NCBI GenBank assembly: GCA_017410145.1
Contig: JAFQRJ010000016.1
Coordinates: 1-63,349 of the forward strand
Direction: 5' to 3'
DNA from: Tyzzerella sp.
GTDB taxonomy: Bacteria; Bacillota; Clostridia; Lachnospirales; Lachnospiraceae
DNA: 63,349 bases
Positions 9,105 to 15,015 of this stretch are shown piece by piece. A model generated the notes under the pieces. That model saw nothing but the letters and a program-made list of their open reading frames with translations, searched no databases and was not told the origin of the DNA. Numbering within the stretch: the first letter of the stretch is position 1; each line of letters begins with the position of its first letter. Made by a program: the position numbers and the translations under genes.

Positions 9105-11546
9105 TTATACGTACTCATCAATGTATTCTTCAAATTGTTCCATTGACATTAATACTTTTCTTGGTTTGGTTCCCTCTTCCGGACCTACAACACCCGCCTC
9201 AGCAAGTTGGTCCATAATTCTTGCAGCGCGGTTAAAGCCGATTTTGAACTTTCTCTGCAACATTCCAATGGAACCTTTATCACTTTCAATCACAAATTGT
9301 CCTGCATAGATAAAATATTCATCTCTATCATCTGCTCCGCCGTCTGCAAAGCCACCACCCGAATTTGTCTGTGCAGCATTGATATGGTTGGTAATATCTT
9401 CGTTATATTGTGTGCCGTCACCATTACTTACCAAATAATCCACAACTGCCTGTACTTCCGGGTCAGCTACAAACGAGCCTTGCACACGTACCGGTTTCGG
9501 ATATCCGGACGGATAGAATAACATATCACCTTTACCCAACAATTTTTCAGCACCATTCATATCTATAATGGTTCGTGAGTCCACACCTGACGACACTGCA
9601 AAGGCAATTCTTGAAGGCATATTTGCTTTAATAAGTCCTGTAATAACATTTACAGATGGACGTTGTGTCGCTACTACCAAATGAATACCACAGGCTCTCG
9701 CAAGCTGTGCCAAACGACAAATTGCATCTTCCACTTCTCCAGGTGCAACCATCATAAGGTCTGCCAATTCATCTACGATAATTACAATCTGTGGTAATTT
9801 TTGTGGTTTTTCCTCTTGTGTCTCAATATCCTGCACAGATTCAACTTTTGCATTATAACCTTTTAAATCGCGCACATTGTAATCAGCAAACAATTGATAA
9901 CGCCTTGTCATCTCTGCTACAGCCCAGTTTAATGCACCGGCTGCCTTTTTAGGATCTGTTACAACTGGAATTAATAAATGCGGAATCCCATTGTATACTT
10001 TCAGTTCAACCACCTTCGGGTCAATCATAATCATCTTGACCTCTTCCGGACTAGCCTTGTATAAAATACTCATAATCAACGTATTGATACAAACTGATTT
10101 ACCGGAACCCGTTGCTCCTGCAATCAAAACGTGAGGCATCTTTGCGATATCTGCCACAACAACTTTTCCTGCAATATCTCGTCCGGCGGCAAATGCAATC
10201 TTGGAAGGATGGGATTTGAATTCACTGGACTCCAATAAATCACGAAGCATAACTGCTGTATTTTCCTTATTCGGAACTTCAATACCAACTGCTGCTTTTC
10301 CCGGGATTGGAGCTTCAATACGTATGTCAGAAGCTGCAAGATTTAATTTGATATCATCTGCAAGACTTACAATCTTGCTAACCTTAACTCCCATTTCCGG
10401 TTGAAGTTCAAATCTGGTCACCGCAGGACCGCAGCTCACATTAGTCACTGTGGCATTTACGTGAAAGGTCTGTAATGTCTGTTCTAATTTGCGAGCTGTT
10501 TCTCTCAAATAAGCATCCGAATCCCCACCGGTTGCTTTACCTCTTGTCAGTAGATTCAGAGGTGGAAATTTATATGCCCTTTTTGGTTTCTCTACATTTT
10601 TCTTTATTTCTTTTTCAACATTTTCTGCCTCTGTGGCAGCGTTTTCACGACTTTCAATGGTACTTCTTCTTTTTCTTGTAGCCGGTTCTTCCTTTTCAGG
10701 TTCTACAAAATCTTCTTCCTCTGCAATCGGTGTTGCTCTGTCAATCACTAATTCTGATGGTTTTTCATATGTAAAAAGTGATTCTGAAGATTCTTTTGGC
10801 GGCTCTATTTCATGCATATTTTCCGCGGCATGGGAAGTCTTATCAAGTGTAGTGTCAAAGGACACGCCAGACACAACCTTGTCTACACGTTTCACCTGTT
10901 TCTCAACACGTTGTTTTTCAGTTTGTTCTTTTCTACGTTTCGCATCCTCTTTTGCAGTCTGGTATACTTTTTTCCCTTCTTCCCTAACAGTTCCCACAAA
11001 AGATTTACCTGTAAGTAGAACAAAAGAAATAATAAATAAAACGATCACAACAATGTATGTACCAACAACACCAATAGCCGGACACAGGAGATTAACAAGT
11101 AATCCTCCCAACCAGCCACCACCATCCTTGTGCATACTTGATAAAATATATATATCTTTTAATGTAGTTCCCTGATCATATCCATTAATAATTAATTGAA
11201 ACAATGTACAGCACATAAGGAAGACAACTAGGCAAGAACCCGCCTTGAAATAAGCATGTGCGTTTCCCTTATTTGATAAAACAAACGTAACCCCTATAAA
11301 TATTAATATCGGGACAATGTATGCCATAAAACCAAATACACCAAATAAAAAAGCAGATAGGGCATCTCCAATGAATCCACCTATCCCAAAATGTGAAATC
11401 ATTGCAAAGATACAAACTGCCAAAGATACTAGTATCGTGATTTCATCACGCATAAAATTTTGCTTTTGAGTGTTTTGATTATTTTTTGCTTTTGTATTTA
11501 CATTTCGCTTTGCCTGCGTTTTTTTTCTTTTCTTTGTCGATGCCAT
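9105..11546 (-). CDS. FtsK/SpoIIIE family DNA translocase
   Basis: This 813-residue protein pumps chromosomal DNA through the division or sporulation septum. After a very basic N-terminus come four or five membrane segments (about residues 30-175). A charged linker (190-330) is followed by the alpha/beta motor domain with Walker A GATGSGKSVC near 455 and Walker B IVIIVDELADLM near 562. The C-terminal gamma winged helix (about 745-813) has QFVIESDKGSIGMLQRKF nearby and reads KOPS/SRS-type sequences. The adjacency to tepA mirrors the tepA-spoIIIE order of Bacillus subtilis, here interrupted by a nuclease-like gene. An upstream repeat array lies in its presumed promoter region. Confidence 0.94.
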   Translation of the reverse strand: MASTKKRKKTQAKRNVNTKAKNNQNTQKQNFMRDEITILVSLAVCIFAMISHFGIGGFIGDALSAFLFGVFGFMAYIVPILIFIGVTFVLSNKGNAHAYFKAGSCLVVFLMCCTLFQLIINGYDQGTTLKDIYILSSMHKDGGGWLGGLLVNLLCPAIGVVGTYIVVIVLFIISFVLLTGKSFVGTVREEGKKVYQTAKEDAKRRKEQTEKQRVEKQVKRVDKVVSGVSFDTTLDKTSHAAENMHEIEPPKESSESLFTYEKPSELVIDRATPIAEEEDFVEPEKEEPATRKRRSTIESRENAATEAENVEKEIKKNVEKPKRAYKFPPLNLLTRGKATGGDSDAYLRETARKLEQTLQTFHVNATVTNVSCGPAVTRFELQPEMGVKVSKIVSLADDIKLNLAASDIRIEAPIPGKAAVGIEVPNKENTAVMLRDLLESSEFKSHPSKIAFAAGRDIAGKVVVADIAKMPHVLIAGATGSGKSVCINTLIMSILYKASPEEVKMIMIDPKVVELKVYNGIPHLLIPVVTDPKKAAGALNWAVAEMTRRYQLFADYNVRDLKGYNAKVESVQDIETQEEKPQKLPQIVIIVDELADLMMVAPGEVEDAICRLAQLARACGIHLVVATQRPSVNVITGLIKANMPSRIAFAVSSGVDSRTIIDMNGAEKLLGKGDMLFYPSGYPKPVRVQGSFVADPEVQAVVDYLVSNGDGTQYNEDITNHINAAQTNSGGGFADGGADDRDEYFIYAGQFVIESDKGSIGMLQRKFKIGFNRAARIMDQLAEAGVVGPEEGTKPRKVLMSMEQFEEYIDEYV

Positions 11547-11679
11547 GAGTATCCCCCTTGTCTCTTAACTATACTATTATAGCATTATTGGGAACTTGTG
11601 TCATCACTAATTTAGAGGAATTTTTAATATATGCATGGGTTTAATGTTGGGGTTTATAGTTTGATACGTGTTTAACATT

Positions 11680-11861
11680 TGTTTTGCATGGCAATTAGGT
11701 CTATAGAGAAACTTCTTGCTGTCAGAAACAATTTAAACTTGTTTTGCATGAGATTTTAAAGATATAGCATTGCGTTTAGGCCTATGCTAGAAAAATCATT
11801 TCTCAGAAACACTTAATCTGAAATATGAGTATCTCAGCATGTTATTTTTTGACATAAACCT
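11680..11861. repeat. left repeat array: three degenerate 36-bp copies (+,+,-) upstream of ftsK
   Basis: Each copy has an AGRYCTATR-like core followed, exactly 26 bases later, by CAGAAACA or a close variant. Between them is a potential small hairpin of the TTTCT..AGAAA kind. Copies start at 11697 (+), 11778 (+) and, on the minus strand, 11861. TTTTGCATG words at 11682-11690 and 11742-11750 precede the first two. The same three-copy arrangement with identical spacing recurs at 13478-13642. The whole intergenic stretch 11547-11928 contains no convincing gene. Confidence 0.75.
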
Positions 11862-11928
11862 AAATCCTGTTTTAAACTCTATAAAACCATCAAGAAAGCT
11901 CATTAAATTGTATCTGACAATGTGAAAT

Positions 11929-12714
11929 TTATTTATAGACCTGATTTTTATCCAGAAAATAATGTTGAACAATATTTTGAATTGTTTCCATTGTTAAGGG
12001 ATGCTCTTTCGTTTCATATGTAGTAATTAGTTGAACAGACGGAATAATACCATGAATTGTATAGTGTTGCAATTTATTATATACTTTTTGTGAATAACTT
12101 GGATTATCCATTAAGCCAAAATGCTCCCAATAATATACTGCACCTGTCTTTGGATGCCGAATTGTAAAGTCTGGATAAAAAACTGTTTCGCCTAACATCA
12201 AAGCGCATTCATATCTATATGGAAGTCTGTTCATATATAAAGCCAACTCAATCATAGATTCAGATTTTGATCTGACAGCATTTCCAAAGCCGTTATTATG
12301 CACTAATTGTTCAGGATAAAGTGAATTGTGTTCATATGGTTCGTTTACCCAATTGGTTAATTCTTCTGATAAAGGTGTAAAAAAGGGTGCAAGAAGATGT
12401 TTGTATTCAGAATCTTGAATAAGCAGTTGTTCGGCCTTGTCTTGAAATGAACTGTGTCTTAGATAAAAATCTATCGCCTTCTTTTCATTTTCTAAATCGT
12501 CCAATAATAGAGACAAAGACTTTTTGATTGCCAATTTTTCTGCTAATTGCCGATTCTCTTTTGGAATATAGGATTTGGTGTGACCATCACTTTGAAACCA
12601 TTTGGCATATTTGCCAGTGTGTGAGCAAACAAGTTTGCCAGGCGGCAAATATTTGAGTTGATTTTTAATAGAATTGACTTGCTTAGTTTGCAATAATAAT
12701 TTTGCAAATATCAC
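11929..12714 (-). CDS. uncharacterised protein with PD-(D/E)XK nuclease-like C-terminus
   Basis: I do not recognise a named family for this 261-residue protein. The N-terminal half is basic and helical, with KYLPPGKLVCSHTGKYAKW around residues 21-39 and a charged helix at 50-100. The C-terminal half has the pattern of a restriction-endonuclease-like fold. SESMIELALYMN is near 151-162, YPDFTIRHP near 180-188 and YYWEHFGLMDNPSY near 194-207, giving candidate acidic residues E152, D182 and E197; the usual Lys of the motif is not obvious. The start is a GTG overlapping the tepA stop (GTGA), so translation is coupled to tepA. Nuclease function is inferred from motif spacing only. Confidence 0.6.
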   Translation of the reverse strand: MIFAKLLLQTKQVNSIKNQLKYLPPGKLVCSHTGKYAKWFQSDGHTKSYIPKENRQLAEKLAIKKSLSLLLDDLENEKKAIDFYLRHSSFQDKAEQLLIQDSEYKHLLAPFFTPLSEELTNWVNEPYEHNSLYPEQLVHNNGFGNAVRSKSESMIELALYMNRLPYRYECALMLGETVFYPDFTIRHPKTGAVYYWEHFGLMDNPSYSQKVYNKLQHYTIHGIIPSVQLITTYETKEHPLTMETIQNIVQHYFLDKNQVYK

Positions 12715-13376
12715 TCCGCATTTTTGTCAATTAATTCATGCAATTTTTGAAAAGCTTCTTTAATTCCGCCAACTTCGTCAATTAAGCCTTCTTTCACTGC
12801 ATCTTCACCTTCCAGCATAGTTCCTACGTCTTTTACAAGCTCTGTTGGGTTTAGCATTAACTCTTCCACACGTTTTTGTGAAATATTAGAATGTGTAGAA
12901 ATAAATTTAGTAATTCTGTCTTGAGTTTTAATCATATTCATCAAACTTTGTTGTACACCGATAAACATACCATTTGAACGAACCGGATGTATGACCATGG
13001 TTCCACTTGGTACAATAAAAGAATAGTCTGTTGCTACAGCCAAAGGACCACCGATCGAATGACTTCCTCCAAGCACCAACGAAACTGTTGGTTTGCTTAA
13101 TGAGGCAATCATTTCCGCAATTGCCAGACCCGCTTCTACATCGCCGCCAAGTGTATTTAATAAAAAAAGTGCTCCTTGAATGTCTTTATTTTCTTCTAAT
13201 TCCGCCAATTGTGGCAATAAGTGGTCATACTTTGTAGATTTTGTATTGTTTGATGCAACATCATGACCTTCTATTTCTCCAATAATTGTAAAGACTTTTA
13301 TGGTATGTTGTTGTTTTGTGTTTTCTAACTCAATGGTTCCTGTTTCTTTAATTTCTTCTTGTTGTTGATTTTCCAT
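12711..13376 (-). CDS. tepA: TepA-like ClpP-family serine protease
   Basis: This 221-residue protein belongs to the ClpP/crotonase-fold peptidases of the TepA (translocation-enhancing protein) branch. After a Glu/Gln-rich N-terminus the fold begins near residue 25. LFLLNTLGGDVEAGLAIAEMI lies near 87-107 (continuous in the protein but quoted here only as a landmark). The nucleophile region GGSHSIGGPLA is near 124 and the His region MVIHPVRSNG near 147. It probably acts in the cytosol on proteins or signal-peptide remnants; the precise substrate is unknown. Synteny with spoIIIE supports TepA over true ClpP. A repeat array fills its upstream region, and a nuclease-like gene is translationally coupled downstream. 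Confidence 0.85.
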   Translation of the reverse strand: MENQQQEEIKETGTIELENTKQQHTIKVFTIIGEIEGHDVASNNTKSTKYDHLLPQLAELEENKDIQGALFLLNTLGGDVEAGLAIAEMIASLSKPTVSLVLGGSHSIGGPLAVATDYSFIVPSGTMVIHPVRSNGMFIGVQQSLMNMIKTQDRITKFISTHSNISQKRVEELMLNPTELVKDVGTMLEGEDAVKEGLIDEVGGIKEAFQKLHELIDKNAE

Positions 13377-13447
13377 ATCTGCATACTTCCTTATTTTTAA
13401 TTCATGTTAGTAGTATGCCAAATATTTAAAAAAATATTATCCTGTGT

Positions 13448-13642
13448 CATGCAAAACATTATTATTTTGCACATTTTAGACCTATACAATTTTTTCTTTC
13501 TTCCAGAAACAATAAAATAAGATTAACACATGATTTTGTAATTTTATTTAATACACTTAGGCATTTATATATAAATTTCTTGCTAAGAAACTAAAAGTTT
13601 AAATTATAAGTTCCTGCGAAGTAATTTTTCTTACATAGGCCT
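13448..13642. repeat. right repeat array: three degenerate 36-bp copies (+,+,-) upstream of tepA
   Basis: Copies start at 13478 (+), 13559 (+) and, on the minus strand, 13642. Core-to-CAGAAACA spacing is 26 bases in each, and copy-to-copy distances are 81 and 83, the same as in the array 1,781 bp to the left. CATGCAAAA at 13448-13456 is the reverse complement of the TTTTGCATG word of the left array, and TGCAAAA/TTTTGCA at 13450-13471 is palindromic. The stretch 13377-13693 holds no other visible gene. Confidence 0.75.
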
Positions 13643-13693
13643 AAACACAACGCTATAATGATAACATGCATACTAAATTACATATGCAACTCC

Positions 13694-13734: not shown

Positions 13735-15015
13735 CTAAACACATTCCAATGCTTGTTTTAAGTCATCAATAATATCTTCAATATTCTCGGTACCAACACT
13801 GAAACGAATTAAATCCGGTTGTACACCTGCTTCTAACAATTCTTGTTCGTTCATTTGGCGATGTGTATGACTGGCTGGATGGAGAACACAACTTCTGGAA
13901 TCTGCAACGTGTGTTACGATCGCAATCATCTTCAGCGCATCCATCATCTTCACGCAAGCATCTCTTCCACCTTTTACACCAAATGTAATGACACCACAGG
14001 TTCCGTTCGGCATATATTTTTGTGCCAAATCGTAGTATTTGTCACCTTCTAAAGAAGGACAATTTACCCAAGCAACCTTATCATGTGCCTGTAAAAATTT
14101 TGCTGCATTAACAGCGTTTTCACAATGTCTTGGCATTCTAAGATGTAAGGTTTCCAGTCCAAGATTAAGTAAAAACGCATTTTGAGGAGACTGAATGGAA
14201 CCTAAGTCCCTCATCATTTGTGATGTAGCTTTTGTAATGTAAGCGCCCTTCCCAAAACGCTCTGTATATACAAGTCCGTGATAGGTTTCATCCGGAGTTG
14301 TAAGTCCTGGGAATTTGTCTGCATGTGCATCCCAGTCAAAGTTACCGCTATCCACAATACAACCACCAACTGCTGTAGCATGACCATCCATATATTTTGT
14401 CGTTGAATGTGTGACAATATCTGCTCCCCATTCAAAAGGTCTACAGTTAATTGGCGTTGCAAATGTATTGTCAATAATAAGCGGAACACCGTGTGCATGT
14501 GCTACTTTTGCAAATTTTTCAATATCGAGTACATTGAGGCCCGGATTTGCAATTGTTTCACCCACAACAGCCTTTGTATTCTCTTGAAAAGCTGCATTCA
14601 ATTCATCCTCTGAAGCATCCGGGTCCACAAAAGTTGCGCTGATTCCCATTTTACGAATTGTGTGTGCGTATAAATTGTATGTACCGCCGTATACAGCCGA
14701 AGAACAGATAATATGGTCTCCTGCCTCAGCAATATTCATAATTGCATAAAAGTTAGCAGCCTGGCCGGAAGATGTCAGCATAGCCGCCACACCGCCCTCC
14801 ATATCACAAATTTTCGCTGCAACCGCATCGTTCGTAGGATTCTGAAGTCTGGTATAAAAATATCCGGAATCCTCTAAATCAAAGAGTTTTCCCATTGCAT
14901 CACTGTTTTCATACTTAAAAGTTGTGCTTTGATATATTGGAATTACTCTCGGCTCCCCATTTTTTGGTGTGTATCCGGATTGAATACATTTAGTTTCAAT
15001 TCTGTAGTCACTCAT
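13735..15015 (-). CDS. metY: O-acetylhomoserine sulfhydrylase (MetY) of the Cys/Met PLP family
   Basis: This 426-residue pyridoxal-phosphate enzyme makes homocysteine from O-acetyl-L-homoserine and sulfide. It is about the length of MetY, longer than cystathionine synthases. Motifs are YQSTTFKYENSDAMG near residue 28, RLQNPTNDAVAAKICDMEGG near 55, SSAVYGGTYNL near 105 and DNTFATPINCRPFEWGADIV near 182. The Schiff-base Lys is in HSTTKYMDGHATA near 208, and SVGTENIEDIIDDL closes the protein. It is a single gene ended by a strong terminator. Assignment to O-acetylhomoserine rather than another activated homoserine follows family resemblance. Confidence 0.93.
   Translation of the reverse strand: MSDYRIETKCIQSGYTPKNGEPRVIPIYQSTTFKYENSDAMGKLFDLEDSGYFYTRLQNPTNDAVAAKICDMEGGVAAMLTSSGQAANFYAIMNIAEAGDHIICSSAVYGGTYNLYAHTIRKMGISATFVDPDASEDELNAAFQENTKAVVGETIANPGLNVLDIEKFAKVAHAHGVPLIIDNTFATPINCRPFEWGADIVTHSTTKYMDGHATAVGGCIVDSGNFDWDAHADKFPGLTTPDETYHGLVYTERFGKGAYITKATSQMMRDLGSIQSPQNAFLLNLGLETLHLRMPRHCENAVNAAKFLQAHDKVAWVNCPSLEGDKYYDLAQKYMPNGTCGVITFGVKGGRDACVKMMDALKMIAIVTHVADSRSCVLHPASHTHRQMNEQELLEAGVQPDLIRFSVGTENIEDIIDDLKQALECV

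Follow-up and report, generated by a model that had tools for sequence, protein, structure and literature searches.

Why do two arrays of short repeats with one and the same geometry flank a gene pair made up of a nuclease gene and a tepA-like gene? The question is raised by a stretch of 63,349 nucleotides from Tyzzerella sp. (Lachnospiraceae; GenBank assembly GCA_017410145.1, contig JAFQRJ010000016.1), the whole of which is called the window here. The association of such repeats with nucleases of this kind is well supported, and its likeliest reading is that the nuclease moves or maintains the repeats. We consider it rather probable that a small non-autonomous repeat element is present here in two copies, one per array, and that its cognate enzyme is the PD-(D/E)XK-type nuclease encoded beside them. 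With somewhat less confidence, although still leaning in favor, we propose that the arrays belong to a second, independently evolved counterpart of the repetitive extragenic palindromic (REP) doublets forming hairpins (REPINs) and REP-associated tyrosine transposases (RAYTs), one in which solitary PD-(D/E)XK-type nucleases of Lachnospiraceae, Treponema, and relatives spread and maintain palindromic elements of several units, every nuclease having a motif of its own and no HuH transposase taking part. These readings build on the association, on the flanking of both sides in part of the loci, on dispersed copies in several genomes, on different repeat types for different nucleases within one genome, on the joint absence of nuclease and arrays at an empty site, and on invariant candidate catalytic residues.

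Two copies of one element around the nuclease gene

The repeat unit of the window is about 34 bp long and consists of a 5' box (AGGYCTATR), 17 variable bases, and a 3' box (CAGAAACA). Six copies had been described in an initial annotation, and their positions, strands, and spacings were all confirmed; a seventh, 11942(-), had been missed and scores 25.9 bits with a matrix built from the six reported copies. Under leave-one-out matrices the seven copies score 15.7 to 31.1 bits, compared with 6.9 to 8.5 bits for the best other site in the masked 63-kb window, so that chance in AT-rich DNA, the fallback offered in that annotation, is rejected. Ten shuffled windows per site gave best scores of 13.1 to 20.1 bits, and the weakest copy, at 13478, has a thin margin over its shuffles (15.7 versus 15.3 bits).

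The four units of the left array (+11697, +11778, -11861, -11942) are spaced at 81, 83, and 81 bp and make up one imperfect palindrome of about 300 bp. The left and right arrays align best in reverse orientation (101 nt, 72%). Unit by unit, E2 and R2 (Table 1) are identical at 27 of 34 positions and E3 and R3 at 22; R4 is nearer to E1 (23/34) than to E4 (20/34), and E1 and E4 themselves share 26. The fourth slot of the right array (13723) falls on a terminator-like hairpin of the metY-like gene. In both arrays a core pair of units spans 84 bp, with the 3' boxes facing inward. The arrays are two copies of one element, and they have the same geometry because that element was copied. The initial annotation had read the constant distances, together with an exact offset of 1,781 bp between the arrays, as a sign of selection on spacing. 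The shared internal geometry stands, but the offset is a by-product of there being two copies that have it. Copying also explains the constancy within the window, although fixed spacings do recur elsewhere, as in the 53- to 54-bp distance of all 14 pairs in another genome of the genus (G203, see below).

When the seven window units were compared, the boxes (9 plus 8 bp) matched at 10 to 16 of 17 positions and the 17-bp middles at 2 to 12 of 17. Covariation was assessed in 48 of 57 distinct symmetric units from other genomes, of lengths 33 and 34. Pairing in the middle was observed in 127 of 224 cells for the 33-mers (126.1 expected) and in 64 of 128 cells for the 34-mers (58.6 expected); three of 15 column pairs paired above chance at p < 0.05, with no overall excess. 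The small hairpin that had been drawn in each copy is thus unsupported as a conserved feature: the boxes are kept, the middle is not, and there is little covariation. Judged from these alignments, the unit resembles a pair of protein half-sites set at a fixed distance more than it does a conserved hairpin.

Within the genus, metY-tepA-ftsK is an old gene order. In eight of the nine other genus genomes tepA has neither an adjoining nuclease nor a unit above background, and the ninth, G201 (locus L167), has a nuclease remnant at tepA; two of the nine tepA stretches (L169 and L170) lack a metY match. In L166 the metY-tepA gap is about 115 bp and the tepA-ftsK gap about 80 bp, both measured between match ends, versus 358 and 1,164 bp in the window. 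On both sides of tepA, which has not moved, the arrays occur or are missing together with the nuclease, in agreement with the expectation that the arrays go with the nuclease. The tepA gene still occupies its old position, with metY and ftsK on either side, and hence was not brought in; flanked by two array copies, it seems to be a bystander and not cargo. A regulator shared by ftsK and tepA, one of three functions suggested initially, does not fit a gene order that is older than the arrays and that eight of the nine genomes keep without them. The ends of a mobile or recombination unit came nearest of the three, in that the arrays occur here only where the nuclease is, but the part of that idea in which tepA travels with the unit did not hold.

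Table 1. Features of the repeat locus in the window
Feature	Position	Strand	Remark
Left palindromic array	11669..11971	.	About 300 bp, four units + + - -; limits by eye from alignment
Right arm of left array			Overlaps 3' end of nuclease gene
Unit E1	11697..11730	+	AGGYCTATR - 17 - CAGAAACA
Unit E2	11778..11811	+	Left array
Unit E3	11828..11861	-	Left array
Unit E4	11909..11942	-	Newly recognized; covers last nuclease codons
Right array	13449..13675	.	Diverged, mainly reverse-oriented copy; three recognizable units; limits approximate
Unit R4	13478..13511	+	E4 counterpart by position
Unit R3	13559..13592	+	E3 counterpart
Unit R2	13609..13642	-	E2 counterpart
Nuclease gene	11929..12714	-	261 aa; PD-(D/E)XK-type C-terminal domain, residues about 121-258
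tepA-like ClpP-family gene	12711..13376	-	Old ftsK neighbor in genus, probably bystander
ftsK/spoIIIE gene	9105..11546	-	Old neighbor
metY-like Cys/Met metabolism gene	13735..15015	-	Old neighbor

The nuclease family and its repeats

The fold matches of the C-terminal domain of the window nuclease are PD-(D/E)XK nucleases. The family has a conserved E..D..E catalytic core together with this fold, which places it in the PD-(D/E)XK superfamily, and the candidate catalytic residues are invariant. The N-terminal domain was predicted well (predicted local distance difference test [pLDDT] score, 93.3), and fold searches with it returned only long-helix look-alikes. The window nuclease has zero Pfam matches, and Pfam, NCBIfam, and PHROGs gave no useful family. 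PF01797 is absent among the 25 families shown of the 30 weak ones for 59 homologs. Unit E4 overlaps the stop region of the nuclease gene; the protein of a paralog ends at HYFL, eight residues before the end of the window protein.

That paralog, 56% identical, is encoded in the same genome (G000) on contig C29 (locus L051). Here the nuclease gene and a merR-like gene, named by eye from its open reading frame, lie between an inverted pair of four-unit arrays of about 315 bp that are 88% alike, and the merR-like gene looks like the bystander that tepA is in the window. The unit is a different one, GGGTATR-N18-ATATAGAAA, in the layout - - + + at about 71/52/71, and arrays of it occur at three further sites of the genome. 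A perfect 31-bp tandem duplication (L051:4087-4148) adjoins an array of this second nuclease. Outside the window, matches to the window's own unit at two or three mismatches in G000 do not exceed the control, the assembly being estimated as 68% complete.

The GGGTATR unit was counted across the genus with up to two mismatches allowed. G000 had 26 matches (control, 6); G203 had 38 (control, 2) and also has the nearest genus homolog of the second nuclease (69%), with units flanking both sides. Matches versus control were 11/13 in G200, 8/11 in G123, 6/8 in G206, and 12/9 in G207, four genomes that have no nuclease and whose counts are at background. They were 13/12 in G202 and 3/4 in G204, which have more distant nucleases, and 11/6 in G201 and 6/5 in G205, which have mainly fragments or distant ones. 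The flanks were read in eight of the 12 loci from the genus homolog search. Near the remnant at the tepA site of G201, palindromic units were seen by eye that the window matrix fails to recognize (best score, 4.1). Nuclease remnants in the genus are at L167, L237, and G202:C54:46505-46784, and in G201 decayed nuclease copies persist at each of the two sites that G000 uses, beside tepA and beside the merR-like gene.

The arrangement of the units in pairs was analyzed with 36 of the 38 units of G203, 20 of the 26 of G000, and four of the 13 of G202, chance-looking two-mismatch matches having been dropped. In G203, 28 of the 36 units form 14 pairs, all (-,+) and 53 to 54 bp apart, and eight units are alone. 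Alignment of the 14 pairs showed an 87-bp core, frequently joined on one side by a third, symmetric unit. The core pair spans 86 to 87 bp at four of five second-family sites of G000 (128 bp at the fifth), 87 to 88 bp in G203, and about 84 to 85 bp in G210 and G212, where the units are symmetric. Where units are directional, those of the core are always inverted, but polarity differs between families: in the GGGTATR family of G000 and G203 the 3' boxes face outward, opposite to the window.

The wider family was examined at 81 loci (80 homologs plus L051) from Lachnospiraceae, Treponema, Kallipyga, a Peptoniphilaceae, and kin; a genome often has several nucleases, and 30 of the 64 positive genomes gave at least two matches. 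For protein analysis 16 of the 80 homologs were omitted, eight as short and eight with stops in the matched span (six only because the match overruns the natural stop, L101 through two internal stops, and L112 through a frame break); one of the nuclease analyses covered the window gene and 58 of the 64 loci left, L051 not being among them. A strict rule required that at least two units within 700 bp carry one stem core; it misses L051 and the three AGGTCTATR loci. By this rule, repeats with at least two units flank the nuclease at 26 of the 81 loci and with at least three units at 18, compared with 0.1 and 0.00 for shuffled flanks; windows 1.5 to 2.2 kb away gave 0 of 51, where the flanks at the same loci gave 19. 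At the 80 loci the flanks had 2.3 to 2.5 units per kb; the density was 0.78 at a greater distance, 0.37 within the gene, and about 0.4 to 0.5 in shuffles. The 5' and 3' flanks of the same gene share repeats in 13 of 53 loci, versus 2 of 53 for mismatched flanks, and repeats stand on both sides of the enzyme gene in the window, at L051, and in G203.

Dispersed copies were sought in the genomes of 14 of the 80 loci, picked mostly because a motif was visible beside the nuclease. Forward matches numbered 30 in G212 (control, 0), 18 in G210 (0), and 11 in G211 (1), and 0 to 5 in the remaining eleven (controls, 0 to 3); in all, dispersed cognate repeats were seen in G203, G000 (second unit), G212, G210, G211, G213, and G234. 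The elements of G212 are 154 bp long, have three units, and lie in surroundings that look unrelated by eye, and its two nucleases carry different units (GGGCA at L088, GGGTA at L096). AGGTCTATR units, like the 5' box of the window, number 5, 8, and 5 in the genomes of L098, L101, and L103, with none in five others.

Three other layouts were noticed. Many elements of one nuclease clade (L090, L092, L207-L210, L217-L226) are nested palindromes, in which inner arms such as TTATGTAAACC ... GGTTTACATAA separate the outer units from the inner ones, and a similar arm lies behind L097. Directly behind nuclease genes L034, L101, L103, L107, and L236 are regular head-to-tail unit arrays that are not palindromes. 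In Treponema, L140, L141, L146, L150, and L151 have repeated palindromic units upstream, not downstream, of the nuclease.

Proposed mechanism and alternatives

We hypothesize that the element is a set of units of about 34 bp, each with two conserved end boxes and a fixed-length variable middle, and that two such units over 84 to 88 bp form its core, with further units outside. The nuclease would bind the paired units and cut at or near them, and the element would be copied or re-inserted elsewhere with host repair; the nuclease gene itself would stay in place, flanked by element copies. Binding, cutting, the copying route, mobility, and present activity are what we infer from the arrangement of genes and repeats. 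The copy in the window may be young, declining, or confined, because its unit was found only beside the nuclease in this partial assembly.

Several results weigh against such an enzyme-driven system. The strict rule fails at 55 of the 81 loci, and within the genus L235, L239, and L241 have few repeats beside the nuclease. A single palindrome motif did not separate 200 family genomes with and without the nuclease (p = 0.14; 37 versus 28 control counts in the 64 nuclease genomes and 44 versus 59 in the 136 without). The tree did not resolve the position of the window nuclease, which could not be grouped with the other AGGTCTATR nucleases. No target duplication was seen in the alignment of the 14 G203 pairs. 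A crude and uninformative test with a poor control placed 20 of 29 units in G212 and nine of 29 in G203 inside long open frames.

Among the alternatives, a simple transposon in which long terminal inverted repeats carry the nuclease and a neighbor gene, with lone arrays as remains resembling miniature inverted-repeat transposable elements (MITEs), has the best claim but is unlikely. Each G000 nuclease does lie with one neighbor gene between an inverted pair of similar arrays, and arrays without the gene exist; however, tepA stands where it always stood, the loci that share flanks align directly in nine of 13 and inverted in four, one element holds several units, and no transposase was recognized among the genes beside the two G000 nucleases, in a search that was not systematic. 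Somewhat less plausible still are operator arrays, through which the nuclease or another regulator would control its own and scattered genes, the repeats having spread by ordinary recombination. Conserved boxes, a fixed length, and a variable middle resemble dimer sites, and arrays sit in gene flanks, but dispersed multi-unit elements with constant spacing at different sites exceed what an operator needs.

Structured RNAs transcribed from the arrays and used by or controlling the nuclease, in a guide-like or antitoxin-like manner, are a shade more doubtful. The left array folds far better than its shuffles (z = -5.3 and -4.9 on the two strands), tandem unit arrays stand directly behind some nuclease genes, and in the symmetric units a few column pairs exceed chance pairing. 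Any palindromic DNA, however, yields a foldable RNA simply because it is palindromic; the right array reaches only z = -1.6 and -2.1, there is no Rfam match, and the middles show no overall covariation. It is very improbable that the enzyme behind the repeats is a RAYT/IS200-type Y1 transposase encoded at another genomic site and that their position beside the nuclease is due to chance. The overall layout is REPIN-like, and G000, G210, and G213 have one Y1_Tnp match each. None was found in G208, G209, G211, G212, and G214 (five of eight genomes; metagenome-assembled genomes may be incomplete), of which G211 and G212 have many dispersed units; moreover, the GTAG tag is rare (1 of 57, 1 of 19, and 0 of 7 units), and the repeats associate with the nuclease flanks. 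A RAYT as driver is thus weakened by repeat-rich genomes that lack Y1 and by the rarity of the tag.

Relation to known systems

The standard case of a retained enzyme living with a population of short repeats is that of REPINs and RAYTs. Likenesses between REP/REPIN sequences with RAYTs (TnpA-REP) and the system proposed here are the gene for a DNA-cutting enzyme flanked by its own repeats (PMC2817692, PMC3116915, PMC8266576, PMC3733652), dispersed cognate repeats, inverted doublets with fixed spacing (PMC3116915 for REPINs), and different enzymes with different repeats per genome. A REPtron combines a tnpA-REP gene, usually single and apparently non-mobile, with cognate REPs that adjoin it and are dispersed in the genome (PMC8266576, PMC2817692), whereas several nucleases per genome are common here. 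The RAYT enzyme is of the HuH/Y1 type, and the enzyme here is PD-(D/E)XK-like; the units here are 33 to 35 bp, with conserved ends and a variable middle, and the elements have two, three, or four of them. Judged by its sequences, the system is laid out like a REPtron but is not a member: it has no PF01797 and no GTAG tag, and two of the five genomes without Y1 have many repeats. No description of a PD-(D/E)XK-based REPIN/RAYT counterpart was found in the open-licence literature, subscription papers and preprints being outside the search.

MITEs and bacterial interspersed mosaic elements (BIMEs) are short, non-coding, symmetrical, and dispersed. The elements here share all four properties but are linked to a solitary nuclease, and no parental DDE transposon was seen. 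BIMEs are also treated in PMC2817692. From Tn7-type ends the arrays differ in their dyad symmetry; no TnsB-, TnsC-, or TnsD-like partner was recognized in the same non-systematic search beside the two G000 nucleases, whose neighbors are host-type genes. A plasmid or phage element was considered and rejected: distant BLAST matches of the locus were only tepA/metY gene pieces or unannotated matches over the tepA part of the locus. Viral contigs held no relative of the window nuclease, and phage and plasmid protein searches gave partial, mainly C-terminal matches (two phage and nine plasmid records), none covering 80%.

A parallel case built on an unrelated nuclease, if true, would mean that an arrangement of this kind arose more than once. 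It would account for a class of palindromic repeats in the genomes of Lachnospiraceae and Treponema and would add a new pair of enzyme and DNA on which recognition, cutting, and copying could be tested; several nucleases with different repeats in one genome would make specificity directly testable.

The nuclease domain also reaches into candidate defense proteins. The C-terminal 120 to 130 or so residues of PDC-S68 in PADLOC are homologous to it (E = 5e-29), but that protein has about 1,200 aa, compared with 261 aa for the window nuclease. The domain is found as well in open frames of about 1,110 to 1,260 codons in G035:C1, G079:C13, G088:C6, G174:C8, and G190:C6, a PDC-S68-like setting.
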